Part shown: one piece after another, positions 15,771 through 35,253 of the stretch | Layout of the letters: each line of letters starts with the position of its first letter | Position numbering within the stretch: position 1 is the first letter of the stretch | Source of the DNA: a virus | Virus record (IMG/VR): IMGVR_UViG_3300009686_000009 | Span: 1-36,371 of that record | Reading direction: 5' to 3' (one strand) | Length of the DNA: 36,371 nucleotides | Notes under the pieces: model-generated | Seen by the model: only the letters and a program-made list of their open reading frames with translations | What the model was told of the DNA's origin: nothing | The model's database searches: none | Position numbers and translations under genes: made by a program

Positions 15771-16184
15771 ATGGATATATTAATTATAAATAATAGAAAA
15801 ACTATACTTGATTGGGATAGTAAATTATCAAAACAAAAATATATTAGCAACATGGAAGCAGTTGCTAAAAAGATAAATTCAACTTCAAATTTTAAGAAAG
15901 TATTTATAATTGTGGCTGGTAGTTTTATGTTCTTTGAAACTGTTATGGCCGCTACTGGGAATCCTCTTAGTCAAGCAGAAGTGCTTGGTAAAACAATTTT
16001 TTCAATAGCTATGAAAATAGGTAAATATTTAGTATTAACGATGGCGGCAGTAGATATTACAAAGTCACTCATGCAATCAGATACAAAAAGTGTACCTAAA
16101 ATCATGATACATTACGTTTTTGCCTATGCAGCTTTAAAATCTTTACCATGGTTCATAGATTTTATTGATACTATGTTTAAGTAA
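15771..16184 (+). CDS. VirB2/TrbC-like pilin-type membrane protein
   Basis: 137 aa, ribosome site CGGAGG 6 nt upstream. A basic N-terminus (about 1-42) precedes a signal-like segment FKKVFIIVAGSFMFFETVMA ending in AxxA/MAA near residue 61. A likely mature part of about 75 aa follows, with two hydrophobic helices (GKYLVLTMAAVDITKSL and MIHYVFAYAALKSLPWF) separated by a short polar loop QSDTKSVPK. This long leader and two-helix layout is that of VirB2/TrbC pilins. It is the first gene of a three-gene operon ending in a large ATPase, matching virB2-B3-B4 order. The pilin call is inference from topology and context. Confidence 0.5.
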   Translation: MDILIINNRKTILDWDSKLSKQKYISNMEAVAKKINSTSNFKKVFIIVAGSFMFFETVMAATGNPLSQAEVLGKTIFSIAMKIGKYLVLTMAAVDITKSLMQSDTKSVPKIMIHYVFAYAALKSLPWFIDFIDTMFK

Positions 16185-16197
16185 AGGGGGTATATAT

Positions 16198-16641
16198 ATG
16201 TTTTTTAGCAAACTGCTATTAGCAGCACCAACCGAAATAGAAAAAATGCTATTAGAGCAACAAGATACTTTAAGAAAATTAGATATATTAAGCAGAGAAG
16301 TAAAAAAAATAAAAGATAATCCAACACCTGAAGTAATAAAAAATATGTATGATGCTCCAAATACTTTGCAAAATCCTATATTTGATTTATCTAACAATAC
16401 AATAGTAGAAAAAGCTGGAAGATTCTTTGATTATATGGATTCAACAATGAATTATTTAACACACCCAGTATTAATATTTAATGCAATTGCTGGAGCAAGT
16501 TATTGGATATGTGGGATAATTGCAATTGCTGGAGTACTATATTATATTATAGGGCATAAGAATGGCTTAAAATGGACAGGAGGAAGTCTACTAGGATATA
16601 CACTTATTCAAGCAATTAATTATGGGTTGAATTTATTATGA
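16198..16641 (+). CDS. Small membrane protein, VirB3-position
   Basis: 147 aa from ATG 16198, chosen because AAAGGGGG lies 8 nt upstream. The first ~60 residues are a charged, coiled-coil-like helix (EIEKMLLEQQDTLRKLDILS). Two transmembrane helices follow (about 100-120, YWICGIIAIAGVLYYIIG; and about 128-146, GGSLLGYTLIQAINYGLNLL). It sits between the pilin-like gene and the ATPase and overlaps the ATPase start by 4 nt (ATGA), so the two are probably made together. Sequence identity to VirB3 cannot be judged by eye. Confidence 0.5.
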   Translation: MFFSKLLLAAPTEIEKMLLEQQDTLRKLDILSREVKKIKDNPTPEVIKNMYDAPNTLQNPIFDLSNNTIVEKAGRFFDYMDSTMNYLTHPVLIFNAIAGASYWICGIIAIAGVLYYIIGHKNGLKWTGGSLLGYTLIQAINYGLNLL

Positions 16642-18986
16642 AAATATTGCAGAAAATAAACCCAATTTATACTTATTTAAAGTTGACACCAGACACTTCA
16701 ATTAGAAATTATGATAGCAGCAACATTGCTCGCACTATAGCAAAGATGTATAAAACCATTACCGAACAAATAAGGAGAGAGGAAAATAATAAACATTGGT
16801 ATAATTTTAAATTTGTGATTGAAACTTCTGTTAAGTGTAGTTATTTAATAGATATAACTAAAGACAATGTATACTTTTACTTCATAGTACCAAGCAAATA
16901 TGTAAATAATATAAGAGAGAAGATCACCGCCACATGGAAAAAAGTATCTATAGAGGAAGTTACTGAAATTAAAGATTTTTCACAAGATGCTCTAAAATAT
17001 CAATTGAATTATAAAAAAGAAGATGCTTTTAGTCTAGCAATTAATAAGACTAGCAATGAACCACTAAATTCAATATTCAGCGTAATTGATGTAATGCAAG
17101 ATAGTGACCGCATAGGCATATTCTACAACTTTATACCATGTAGCCAATTACCCTTTAAAAAAGAATATGAGGATACTATGAAAAAGGTTAAAGACAATAA
17201 GCCTATTGATAAAGAAAAGTTAAATAAAAAATATATATTTAAAATGTCGATACTTTATTTATTAGACTTTTTAGACATAATTAAAGAGGTGCTAGTGGAC
17301 TTTACTGGTGGATTAGTTAATGCACCTAACAAAGATTTAAGCTTATTAGAGGTAGCAGCAGAGTTATTAAGCAATAACAAAAAACTATCTTTAGCAACTA
17401 AAAAGAAAAAGGAAACAATTATAATAAATACACAAATGCTAGTCCTGTCTGAAAGCATAGATACGTCTAGAAAGAGTAGTAATGCTATAAGTGTATGTCA
17501 ATCTTATAAAGCCTTGGAAGAAGATAAGGATGAGGGAAATGAATTATTATATAAAAAAGTAAAAGCTAATAATGTTTTTTATATAAATGATTTAAAGGTG
17601 GCTGGAGTAGATATAAACAAAGTGAGCGTAGAGGAATGCCAAAACTTTATCCAACTCCCAGGTAGAGATTTACTAAATCAATATAAAATTAAAAAAATTG
17701 ATACGTTAGAATCATTGGTACCAACAGAACTACAAGCAGGAGTTATGTGTCTGGGAAATGTAACTTATAAAGGGATGGCGGCTAGAGCATTTCTAAGTAA
17801 TGATAAAGAATTTAAAAATCTTACTTTATGCTTAATAGGTCCTACTAGGTCAGGGAAAACTACTTTAATATCTAATCTATCAAGGGATAGTATAATGGCT
17901 GGAGAATGTACCATATTATTTGATTTTTGTGGCAACTGTGAATTAAGCAATGATGTAAGTAAGGTTTTTGAAAATGTACTAGACATAGATTGTAGCAATG
18001 AATTGACCTTACAAGGGCTAGGATATAACGAAATAGTTCCTAGCACAAATACAGTCTTTGAAGTATATCGTTGTGCTAAAGCTAAAACAAGTCAGTTAAT
18101 GACATTAGTGAATACATTAAGTGATGATGAAGAATTAAAAGCGAGAATGGAAAGATATTTAGAAGCTGCAGCTATAATAACATTTATTGAAAATGGAGCT
18201 ATTAAAGATGTATTCAAGTTATTACAAGATCACATGTTAAGAAAACAATTTATTGATAATGTACCTAAAAATCAATTTGAAAATTTAGAAGAATATATTT
18301 TAGCACTAGAAGAATTAGACGAGTGGAGCAAAGCAACCAAAGATAAACCAGCAGAACTAATAGGAACTAAACTAAGTTTTGTACAAGGAATATTAAATAG
18401 AGTTAATAGACTTAAAAGTAATACTTATATGGAACTAATGTTAAAAAAAGATTGCAGTAACAATATAAATTTAGTTGATGAAATACAGAAAGCACAATTA
18501 ATTTGTATAAGAATGCCTGAAATAATGTTTTCTACAGAACAGGAGAAAGACATATATTGCACATATTGGATTACTAAAATTTGGGGAGCTTTGCAAGTAA
18601 GAAAGTGGAATATTCCAGATGCTAAAGATAGGATAAAACTTAATATAGTATTTGATGAATTATATCAGGTGCCATCATGCCAAAGCTTTTTAAAATCTAA
18701 ATTAAGCCAAATTGCTAAGTTTGGAGGTAAACCAATAATATCATGCCATTATTTGGGGCAGATATCGAATATAAGAAATGAATTGAAAGCAGCTAATAGT
18801 AGTTATATGTTATTGCAAGGATGCGACAAGGATAATTTCAAGGAGTTAAAAGAGGAACTAAGTCCATACGAATTAGAGGACCTATTAAATCTTAAAAGAT
18901 ATGAAAGTCTTAATTTGATAAAATATGAAAATGGATGGAGTAAATTTATAAGCAAGTTGCCACCACCAATTAAAACAAGCAAATAA
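16638..18986 (+). CDS. HerA/FtsK-superfamily ATPase of type IV secretion type (VirB4/VirD4-like)
   Basis: 782 aa. Residues 1 to about 330 form an N-terminal region with a conserved-looking stretch (KFVIETSVKCSYLIDITKDN, then FIVPSKYVNNIREKI) seen in conjugation-type ATPases. Walker A is LIGPTRSGKTT (G401-T408, K407). Walker B is LNIVFDELYQ (D673, E674). A Gln-type sensor run IISCHYLGQISNIRNEL follows. The C-terminus (LNLKRYESLNLIKYENGWSK, then KLPPP) resembles the end of coupling-protein/TraD-like ATPases. There is no transmembrane helix at the N-terminus, so membrane docking would depend on the preceding two small membrane proteins. It probably powers movement of DNA or protein across the envelope. 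No relaxase is visible nearby. Confidence 0.75.
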   Translation: MKILQKINPIYTYLKLTPDTSIRNYDSSNIARTIAKMYKTITEQIRREENNKHWYNFKFVIETSVKCSYLIDITKDNVYFYFIVPSKYVNNIREKITATWKKVSIEEVTEIKDFSQDALKYQLNYKKEDAFSLAINKTSNEPLNSIFSVIDVMQDSDRIGIFYNFIPCSQLPFKKEYEDTMKKVKDNKPIDKEKLNKKYIFKMSILYLLDFLDIIKEVLVDFTGGLVNAPNKDLSLLEVAAELLSNNKKLSLATKKKKETIIINTQMLVLSESIDTSRKSSNAISVCQSYKALEEDKDEGNELLYKKVKANNVFYINDLKVAGVDINKVSVEECQNFIQLPGRDLLNQYKIKKIDTLESLVPTELQAGVMCLGNVTYKGMAARAFLSNDKEFKNLTLCLIGPTRSGKTTLISNLSRDSIMAGECTILFDFCGNCELSNDVSKVFENVLDIDCSNELTLQGLGYNEIVPSTNTVFEVYRCAKAKTSQLMTLVNTLSDDEELKARMERYLEAAAIITFIENGAIKDVFKLLQDHMLRKQFIDNVPKNQFENLEEYILALEELDEWSKATKDKPAELIGTKLSFVQGILNRVNRLKSNTYMELMLKKDCSNNINLVDEIQKAQLICIRMPEIMFSTEQEKDIYCTYWITKIWGALQVRKWNIPDAKDRIKLNIVFDELYQVPSCQSFLKSKLSQIAKFGGKPIISCHYLGQISNIRNELKAANSSYMLLQGCDKDNFKELKEELSPYELEDLLNLKRYESLNLIKYENGWSKFISKLPPPIKTSK

Positions 18987-19065: not shown

Positions 19066-19179
19066 GTGTTAAAAGGTACAATCACAAGGGGGATATATAA
19101 AGACAAGCCTTATAGGTCAAATTTGAGCGTTGAGTGTTTATAATTAGAAAAAATTTTAGTTTTACATTGAAAATACATA

Positions 19180-19232
19180 CATATTACAAATATATTAATG
19201 TTATACTATTATAAACATATTACAAATATATT
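19180..19232. repeat. Two promoter-proximal copies of a 17-bp repeat
   Basis: CATATTACAAATATATT occurs at 19180-19196 and again at 19216-19232 (36 nt start to start). An extended -10 (TG-T-TATACT, TATACT at 19202-19207) lies between them, and the second copy runs up to the ribosome site of the HTH-RHH gene. Diverged copies occur inside that gene at 19440-19462 and 19497-19519. Autoregulatory operators or a partition-type centromere are the likely roles. Confidence 0.65.
19199..19207 (+). promoter_or_regulatory. Extended -10 promoter of the HTH-RHH regulator
   Basis: TG at 19199-19200, one base, then TATACT at 19202-19207. The -35 region is occupied by the first repeat copy and has no clear TTGACA. 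The ribosome site GAGGTG follows at about 19235. Repeat copies on both sides suggest repression by the encoded protein. Confidence 0.5.
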
Positions 19233-19244
19233 CGTGAGGTGTAA

Positions 19245-19808
19245 ATGATGGAGAGAGTACAATTTGATAAACTGGAAATTGCAGAGCAGCTGCAGTATAT
19301 AAATCAGAATTTAAAAACAAGCACACTAACAAACATATGTGAGGAAATTGGAATAGGTAGGACCACAATAAGGGATAGATTTTACAAAGAATCGTATATA
19401 TTTGATAAATACTTGAAGCAGTATATAAAAGATAGTGAATATAAACATAATACAAGTGTATTACAAGTTGCTGCAACCAAGTTACCGCCAGGAGAATATA
19501 AACGTAATACAAGTATATTCAACTCAAAAGATGCCCAAAATAAGATTTTAGATATATTAGAAAAACATGATAACATACATGAAATGTTGGAATGGTTTAA
19601 CAAGCAAAAAAACGTCATAGAAGTAGATCTAAATGAATTGAAAATTGATAATGCTAATCTTCAGGGAGAAATAAAAGTTACTACTGTAAGATTATATAAT
19701 GATGTTTGGGAGCAATTTAGAACTTTTATGGGCGAATATAGTGAATTTAAAAGTATGGATTTAATAAGTATGGCATTGTTAGAATATATGCACAAATATA
19801 AAAAATAA
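19245..19808 (+). CDS. HTH plus ribbon-helix-helix DNA-binding protein
   Basis: 187 aa. The N-terminal part (about 15-47, TLTNICEEIGIGRTTIRDRF) is a helix-turn-helix. The C-terminal part (about 140-185, EIKVTTVRLYNDVWEQFRTF, then MDLISMALLEYMHKY) is a CopG-like strand-helix-helix. Between them two peptide repeats EYKHNTSVL (Y66) and EYKRNTSIF (Y85) are encoded by the DNA repeats at 19440-19462 and 19497-19519. Such HTH-RHH fusions are plausible plasmid partition, copy-control or transfer-regulator proteins. GAGGTG lies upstream of the start; an adjacent ATG one codon later is equally possible. Autoregulation is inferred from its repeats. Confidence 0.65.
   Translation: MMERVQFDKLEIAEQLQYINQNLKTSTLTNICEEIGIGRTTIRDRFYKESYIFDKYLKQYIKDSEYKHNTSVLQVAATKLPPGEYKRNTSIFNSKDAQNKILDILEKHDNIHEMLEWFNKQKNVIEVDLNELKIDNANLQGEIKVTTVRLYNDVWEQFRTFMGEYSEFKSMDLISMALLEYMHKYKK
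19440..19519. repeat. Two intragenic copies of the regulator's DNA repeat
   Basis: The copies at 19440-19462 and 19497-19519 share TATAAAC(A/G)TAATACAAG and lie 57 nt apart (19 codons). The first contains a perfect inverted repeat TAATACA-AG-TGTATTA (19448-19463). They are recognisable versions of the promoter repeats at 19180 and 19216, so four related sites spread over about 340 nt. Confidence 0.6.
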
Positions 19809-19965: not shown

Positions 19966-20388
19966 ATGGATGATGAAGTTAAGCAATTTAAAAGCCTAGT
20001 TGAAAGTGGCTTATCAGGAGTTTACAAGAAAACATTCTTTGTAATGGCTGAAAATAACTTTATAAAAAATCCTAAATACACAACTAATCAAAAAATGGTT
20101 TATTTATGCCTATGTACATATGCTGGAGCAGTTAGCAGTTGTTTCCCAAGCAAAGAAACTATATCAAAAGATTTAAATCTTACAACTAAAACAGTTTATA
20201 CAATATTAAAGCAACTAGAAGAATTACGAGCAATAATAATAGTTAACCAGATAACCGAAAATAATAGAATGACTAGCAATTTGTATATTTTATCTGATAT
20301 TGATAAGAATACTGGTGACTTTATTCCTGAAAGCATTGAAAAGTTTAAAGAATTATCTAATGGTTTTGTTAGGGTTAAAGGTAAATAG
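19966..20388 (+). CDS. Winged-helix replication-initiator-like protein
   Basis: 140 aa with ribosome site AAGGAGGG. The core (about 40-110) YTTNQKMVYLCLCTYAGAVS, then SCFPSKETISKDLNLTTKTV, then YTILKQLEELRAII is the helix-turn-helix_36 type found in phage and plasmid replication proteins. The ORF ends in RVKGK exactly where an array of iteron-like repeats starts; the first repeat shares the last base of the stop codon. In the same frame past the stop, four stops (TAG then three TAA) alternate with open sequence, so the tail may be truncated. Initiator function is inferred from fold and repeats; it could also be only a transcription regulator. Confidence 0.6.
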   Translation: MDDEVKQFKSLVESGLSGVYKKTFFVMAENNFIKNPKYTTNQKMVYLCLCTYAGAVSSCFPSKETISKDLNLTTKTVYTILKQLEELRAIIIVNQITENNRMTSNLYILSDIDKNTGDFIPESIEKFKELSNGFVRVKGK

Positions 20389-20479
20389 GGTATCGGTAAA
20401 TTTTACCGAGGGTATAAGTAAAATTTACCGATAGGGTATAAGTAAAATTTACCGATAGGGTATAAGTAAAATTTACCGA
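20388..20479. repeat. Four iteron-like direct repeats (possible plasmid origin)
   Basis: Units start at 20388, 20410, 20434 and 20458 with spacing 22-24 bp (about two helical turns). Units 2-4 are identical and contain GTATAAGTAAAATTTACCGA. Unit 1 differs slightly and contains the 8-bp inverted repeat TCGGTAAA-T-TTTACCGA. The array abuts the stop codon of the Rep-like gene, and an A+T-rich stretch follows. This is the usual layout of iteron-type origins, although origin activity cannot be proved from sequence. Confidence 0.65.
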
Positions 20480-20484
20480 CTAAT

Positions 20485-34647: not shown

Positions 34648-35253
34648 ATGCAGAAAAAAAGACCAGCAAAACCAATTAAGGATCTTCAATTAGTACTAGA
34701 TTTTCAAGATTATTTAAAGCATAAGAATGAAAGAGACTATATGATGTTTTGTCTTGGTATAGTAACAGGATATAGAGCTGGAGACTTAGTTACTTTAAAA
34801 ATAAGGGATGTAGCAATGGCATTAAGAAATGGTTATTTTTTAATTTTAGAGGGTAAAAAAGTTAATACAAGAAACATAAGAAAAGAAAATATAAAACCTC
34901 GTGAAGTTGTAATAGTATCCAAGCTTAGTAAAATGTTAAAAGATTACATTAAAGATAAAAATGATTATGAATATATGTTTGTAAGTAGAAAAGGTGAAAA
35001 TCAACACATTGCGGTAAGTCATGTAAGTAGAATACTTGGAGAAGCTGGTAAGGTTTTTGGCCTAAGTAATATAAGCGCTCATTCCATGAGGAAAACGTAT
35101 GCTTATACAATATACGTTACAAGCAAGTTTGATATTGTAGCAGTAAAAGAAATGTTAGGACATTCTAGTATAGAAATAACAAAGAGATATTTAGGCCTAG
35201 ATCGTGAGACATATGATAAATATTCAGAACCTTTAAATGACCTACTAAGATAG
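34648..35253 (+). CDS. Short tyrosine recombinase (catalytic domain only)
   Basis: 201 aa. All catalytic positions are present: R43 in GYRAGDL, K70/K71 in LEGKKVN, H145 and R148 in HSMRKT, H172 in LGHSSIEITKRY, and the nucleophile Y181. The N-terminal core- and arm-binding domains of phage integrases are lacking. Recombinases like this are often found just before HNH and terminase genes in Firmicute phages. It may resolve multimers or act on a Xer-like site rather than drive classical integration. Its substrate is not known; the dif-like repeat at 19030 is one candidate. Confidence 0.85.
   Translation: MQKKRPAKPIKDLQLVLDFQDYLKHKNERDYMMFCLGIVTGYRAGDLVTLKIRDVAMALRNGYFLILEGKKVNTRNIRKENIKPREVVIVSKLSKMLKDYIKDKNDYEYMFVSRKGENQHIAVSHVSRILGEAGKVFGLSNISAHSMRKTYAYTIYVTSKFDIVAVKEMLGHSSIEITKRYLGLDRETYDKYSEPLNDLLR

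Follow-up and report, generated by a model that had tools for sequence, protein, structure and literature searches.

Matched DNA sites in the promoter and coding sequence of a phage gene from a family of putative plasmid-maintenance proteins

Introduction

Why would a gene carry the same short DNA element both ahead of its start codon and within the bases that encode its own protein? Among initiators and operators there are known cases of a protein whose binding sites lie within its own gene: the lambda O and RepA_N initiator genes have the origin within them, and in B. subtilis a parS site lies inside spo0J. Here we analyse a candidate for such a case in a 36,371-bp sequence of a clostridial phage (IMG/VR record IMGVR_UViG_3300009686_000009; this whole stretch is called the window below), where an initial annotation had read a set of repeats in and around the gene of a 187-aa protein as a sign of autoregulation, looping or a centromere partly built from coding DNA. 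We ask whether the repeats act as DNA or as peptide, whether relatives of the gene share them, and what they might be for.

Results

Four copies of one site in and upstream of the gene

A repeat search without prior input returned one family, at 19171-19196, 19207-19232, 19437-19462 and 19494-19519, which corresponds to a 22-23-bp element present exactly four times in the window, with one pair of copies around the promoter and another pair in coding sequence (Table 1). The initial annotation had placed four related copies there, and their number is far from chance: the 22-mer ATAAACATAWTACAARTATATT with up to three mismatches matches the 36,371-bp window at 19175, 19211, 19441 and 19498 only, against a mean of 0.04 and a maximum of 1 match in 100 dinucleotide shuffles. 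With a weight matrix built from the four sites, these score 28-29.5 bits, and no other position in the window exceeds 13.5. Two details reported at the outset are also present, namely a perfect 7-2-7 palindrome in one copy (TAATACA-AG-TGTATTA, 19448-19463) and a peptide repeat EYK(H/R)NTS(V/I) created by the intragenic copies (EYKHNTSV at residues 65-72, EYKRNTSI at residues 84-91). A candidate fifth, degenerate copy in the second linker of the protein (around 19610, 14/16 relative to the fourth copy) was rejected, being unranked in the weight-matrix scan and coding for a conserved peptide, NVIEV. Since the window has no other copies, the target of a protein that reads them would be its own locus. 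Promoter-like hexamers overlap the upstream copies, which fits autoregulation; this is a weak indicator, and such matches are no more numerous in the region than in shuffles.

Table 1. Coordinates of the sites, the gene and neighbouring features in the window.
Feature	Position	Strand	Sequence	Basis or remark
Promoter copy 1	19174..19196	+	TACATACATATTACAAATATATT	Repeat search, 22-mer search, weight matrix
Promoter copy 2	19210..19232	+	TATAAACATATTACAAATATATT	Repeat search, 22-mer search, weight matrix
Coding copy 1	19440..19462	+	TATAAACATAATACAAGTGTATT	Residues YKHNTSV; includes most of palindrome 19448-19463
Coding copy 2	19497..19519	+	TATAAACGTAATACAAGTATATT	Residues YKRNTSI
Best promoter-like hexamer pair	19167..19196	+	TTGAAA-18-TATATT	Overlaps promoter copy 1; consensus match only
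Second promoter-like hexamer pair	19183..19212	+	ATTACA-18-TATTAT	Overlaps promoter copies 1 and 2; consensus match only
Ribosome-binding-like sequence	19236..19241	+	GAGGTG	3 bp before ATG; read from sequence
187-aa DNA-binding protein, phrog_2727	19245..19808	+		Profile match, AlphaFold2
Rep-like winged-HTH gene (HTH_36)	19966..20388	+		Probable replication gene of the element; directly after the 187-aa gene
Four 24-bp iteron-like tandem repeats	20387..20480	.	AGGGTATAAGTAAAATTTACCGAT	Unrelated in sequence to the site

The coding copies are selected as DNA

The recurring peptide could itself be the selected feature, duplicated because the protein needs it, with the likeness to the promoter a coincidence in DNA that is indeed AT-rich. 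Against this, the promoter copies match although they are non-coding, and two non-coding copies imply that the element is selected as DNA. Codon choice also goes beyond chance: when the peptides are kept constant and codons are sampled at the frequencies the phage uses, the joint probability that both coding copies reach their 20/23 match to a promoter copy is 5e-5, and the probability that they resemble each other as observed is 3e-4. The match between upstream region and coding sequence in the window has p=0.003, the floor of a test with 300 shuffles, whether compared with synonymous-codon shuffles or with dinucleotide-shuffled upstream regions. These tests support the view that the four copies in the window are DNA elements and not only a peptide repeat, and in this respect the original reading of the layout held.

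A nameless family with a winged HTH and a putative RHH

The protein matches the profile of phrog_2727, a family without known function, over its full length (E=1.7e-41, residues 2-187 against positions 1-176 of 176). Its order of domains is an N-terminal winged HTH, a disordered linker, helices, a second linker and a putative C-terminal RHH. The HTH of the initial annotation is borne out by a confident AlphaFold2 model from residue 1 or 4 to residue 62 (pLDDT about 90, three helices and a hairpin), followed by disordered stretches at residues 68-154 (pLDDT <50), within which there are two helices at 95-120. The RHH of the same annotation is plausible from the sequence pattern; the AlphaFold2 monomer has two low-confidence C-terminal helices with the RHH strand not modelled, structural matches of CopG/NikR/HicB-like type are weak (Z about 3), the best PDB sequence match of the C-terminus, omega, is non-significant (E=0.087), and a Foldseek search with the C-terminal model returned nothing. 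Pfam and NCBIfam searches of the protein gave no match to a ParB signature, and Pfam none to the DUF536/amphipathic-helix module.

The phrog_2727 family is nearly confined to C. difficile and its relatives, where plasmids and phage-plasmids carry it. At 22-40% identity homologues are found on plasmids of Clostridioides, Paraclostridium and Terrisporobacter, including pCD630 and pCD-WTSI1, and they also occur on C. difficile phage-plasmids of about 130 kb such as phiCDIF1296T; the closest homologue of the window protein is only about 40% identical to it. Among 394 genomes of the C. difficile order there are 51 carriers, mostly with the gene on small contigs and in several cases with four to nine copies of it, and none of the 14 control genomes has a homologue. 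Scans for related loci in genome contigs (query A2) and in viral contigs (single-protein query) gave nothing. Near the gene, a serine resolvase is encoded at 14 of 61 loci, ParM at four, ParA at two and a Rep protein at some. Because some carriers already have ParM/ParR or ParA, the gene is not always the sole partition system; an apparent ParA association on CP026601 was discarded, the AAA protein there not being ParA. The window gene most likely belongs to a plasmid and phage-plasmid maintenance family, an assignment absent from the initial annotation. A mostly chromosomal relative (loci L119, L121, L122, L124, L127 and L130) has lysine/serine-rich linkers and a conserved motif INITQEDLDKLCEVYDWY; no own-site repeats were found in these genes, and their neighbours (a lipoprotein-like gene) gave no functional clue.

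Sites and genes have diversified together

If the repeats form a self-binding operator or centromere array, homologues are predicted to carry their own internally matched versions. We compared 61 homologues at <80% identity, of which 53 belong to the plasmid/phage type and 8 are distant and mostly chromosomal, scoring for each the best ungapped match, on either strand, of the coding sequence to the 150 bp that precede it. The upstream region of a plasmid/phage homologue matches its own coding sequence better than shuffled upstream regions do at p<=0.05 in 24 of 53 cases (Fisher 1e-23), 17 of which reach about 0.01 or less, and the synonymous-shuffle version of the test gives Fisher 1.9e-8 over the same 53. 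The match is absent from the distant relatives (0/8, Fisher 0.57), a small control that includes two divergent members on small contigs. About half of the plasmid/phage homologues miss p<=0.05, so the pattern is not demonstrated in every one, and since the statistic is insensitive to short or direct-repeat motifs, the 29 above this threshold are no proof of absence.

The motif is wholly different between subclades (GGAGGACAGTTGTCCTCC, AAGCTTACTGTAAGC, TGATGACAATTGTCATCA, TGACAAAGGTATGACAA, ACTACTTTAGTAGT, GGATGCTCTAAAGCATCC and TAATACAAATGTATTAC), and the linker peptides change along with it because they spell it. As a control that needs no assumptions, upstream regions were swapped among homologues; own pairs scored above swapped pairs (P=5e-14), and the strong cross-matches that remained were mostly between close relatives within subclades. 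Of 23 clear cases, 21 have the coding match in one of the two linkers, after the HTH or before the C-terminal domain, whereas shuffles place 34% there (P=1.3e-8); the linker limits were set after the model and alignment had been seen. A dip in synonymous rate at the sites is visible in a large group of C. difficile phages and is too small to lean on. As a guide to which domain reads the site, similarity of the motif across homologues was compared with similarity of the HTH (partial rho 0.17, p=0.017) and of the putative RHH strand (partial rho 0.12, p=0.08), and the relation is weak for both.

A self-targeting array, with a protein's putative sites in both the promoter and the coding sequence of its own gene, is thus a trait of the plasmid/phage-type family. 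Homologues do not lack repeats, as would be the case if the original reading were wrong, and instead carry different, internally matched versions of their own at equivalent places. A motif that differs from relative to relative and yet is matched at the same places suggests that the gene is probably a landing pad for its own protein. The homologues also bear on the peptide as the selected feature, because unrelated linker peptides spell the promoter motif of their own gene and the swap control ties each promoter to its partner; we strongly disfavour that explanation and regard it as very improbable.

Sites on other elements

On most elements inspected the sites stay close to the gene. In a 7,356-bp P. 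sordellii plasmid all of them lie within the gene or just upstream, and in a 31-kb contig (G175:C3) they are confined to the gene and its upstream region. The 52.5-kb P. sordellii plasmid NZ_CP124275 has perfect copies in the promoter (17665) and inside the gene (18058), an intragenic copy with mismatches (17937), and further perfect copies after the gene's stop codon (18279), after the next gene (19172) and, as a single extra, in a convergent non-promoter gap beside a parA operon (14458). The 135-kb plasmid CP026601 has the window's type of site at about 14 scattered places, against 2-3 for a reversed-pattern control, which suggests something more like a wider regulator there; the record shows the family gene of this plasmid broken into two reading frames.

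These distributions bear on the possibility that the promoter and coding copies are only operators of a looped repression complex, for which galO_I and lacO2 are the models, with no role in segregation or replication. Operators inside coding sequences are known, two of the window copies overlap promoter-like hexamers, and the scattered sites of CP026601 point to regulation of other genes on that plasmid. In the window and two other elements, however, sites were found only at the gene, and such a protein would regulate nothing but itself; coding copies also fall in the second linker, and NZ_CP124275 has copies after a stop codon and in a convergent gap that holds no promoter. We consider autoregulation as the sole function to be unlikely. 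With recognisable sites only in and around the gene itself there is no obvious regulon, and the array is probably the output, as a centromere or an origin.

A separate, probable replication gene in the window

Downstream of the gene the window has its own rep-like gene, whose product has homologues on 42-49-kb C. difficile plasmids, and directly after it a set of iteron-like repeats (Table 1) that form the probable origin of the phage-plasmid. The 24-bp repeats have internal palindromes (GTAAAATTTAC) and are followed by three 17-bp tandem repeats up to 20535. The only integrase-like gene in the window encodes a short 201-aa Xer-like tyrosine recombinase (34648-35253), which is not a full phage integrase and resembles plasmid multimer-resolution recombinases. 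The rep-like gene, the iterons and the lack of any integrase-like gene beyond this one suggest a plasmid prophage whose replication gene adjoins the 187-aa locus. The region between the lysis amidase and the 187-aa gene (15771-18986) encodes a VirB4/TrwB-like ATPase of 782 aa (phrog_5156, with a weak TrwB_AAD_bind match) together with two small proteins of membrane type, a conjugation-like module in a tailed-phage genome.

The main rival to a maintenance role is that the product is a replication initiator whose origin lies inside its own gene, the sites being iterons that it binds to start replication. Initiator sites embedded in coding sequence have precedents, and the Terrisporobacter plasmid pTPELB2 (5,657 bp) carries the family gene, metabolic genes and a Pre recombinase, with no replication-protein candidate besides the family gene and only that gene and Pre as candidates for replication or maintenance. 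A published survey (PMC6807378) left some C. difficile plasmids with no predicted initiator, which also counts for this role. In an arrangement of the lambda O or RepA_N type the gene would be the sole candidate initiator of its replicon, which holds for pTPELB2 as an exception: the window carries iterons of 24 bp next to its rep-like gene, and several other carriers encode a Rep besides the family protein. No DnaA-box-like site was found near the array. We think an initiator improbable, and the separate rep gene and iterons in the window favour a centromere-like stability function.

Discussion

The reading we prefer, to which we give an even chance, is that the gene encodes an autoregulated plasmid-maintenance protein and that its array is probably centromere-like and partly made of coding DNA. 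The sequence relationships strongly imply that the protein binds these sites, and on any reading the two promoter copies are likely to serve autorepression; binding, autorepression, dimers and a role in partition or stability are all things that we infer. The gene would be a self-contained maintenance locus of the phage-plasmid. Its product would bind imperfect palindromes of about 16 bp, probably as a dimer, and binding at the two promoter sites would repress transcription. Further sites would have been written into the coding stretches for unstructured linkers, in which nearly any amino acids may be tolerated. The array of roughly 350 bp would then stabilise the element in cis by forming a centromere-like nucleoprotein complex, and autorepression would be a side effect. 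Pairs of protein and sites would have diverged from plasmid to plasmid, each to its own specificity, and several such plasmids could share one cell. The reading is made less certain by the carriers that also encode ParMR or ParA, and by pTPELB2 with its single Rep candidate.

Parts of this arrangement resemble known systems. The staphylococcal pSK1 Par protein is a single-protein partition system with an N-terminal winged HTH and a helical middle and without a partner NTPase (PMC11500499). Compared by described architecture, the 187-aa protein is similar in its winged HTH, helices and low-complexity linkers, but pSK1 Par ends in a DUF536/amphipathic-helix module and the phrog_2727-type family in a putative RHH, and we found no coding-embedded array of this kind described for pSK1 Par. 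With the RHH proteins of centromere binding and copy control (omega of pSM19035, ParG, ParR and CopG) the family shares the putative C-terminal RHH and palindromic or repeated sites upstream of its own gene; it differs from them in the extra N-terminal winged HTH, the long linkers, the sites in its own coding sequence and the lack of an obligatory partner ATPase gene. As in lambda O and the RepA_N initiators, a DNA-binding protein has its putative sites in the part of its coding sequence that separates two domains, whereas here the copies in the promoter are just as prominent and a separate rep gene is present in many carriers, the window phage among them. In structure the N-terminal HTH weakly resembles KorB and Spo0J of the ParB family (Z 4.6 and 3.8), from which the family is set apart by the lack of a CTPase/ParB N-domain, by unrelated sequence, and by sites that are not spread across most elements. 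In the literature we searched, with most subscription papers outside it, we found no description of the phrog_2727-type family, nor of a family-wide, co-diversifying, coding-embedded array.

More broadly, and tentatively, this may be a family of maintenance proteins that use their own gene as a centromere, in which the motif that a protein reads dictates its linkers, protein and sites change specificity together, and many distinct segregation systems have arisen within one bacterial family. The analysis offers a hypothesis of function for a nameless family that many plasmids and phage-plasmids of C. difficile carry, elements for whose maintenance there is as yet little explanation, and it provides a clear case in which a DNA signal has shaped the amino acids encoded by the same bases. 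With their many diverged and matched protein-site pairs, the homologues are a natural data set on how specificity of DNA binding and compatibility of plasmids evolve, and they could be a source of compatible modules, for replication or partition, in clostridial vectors.
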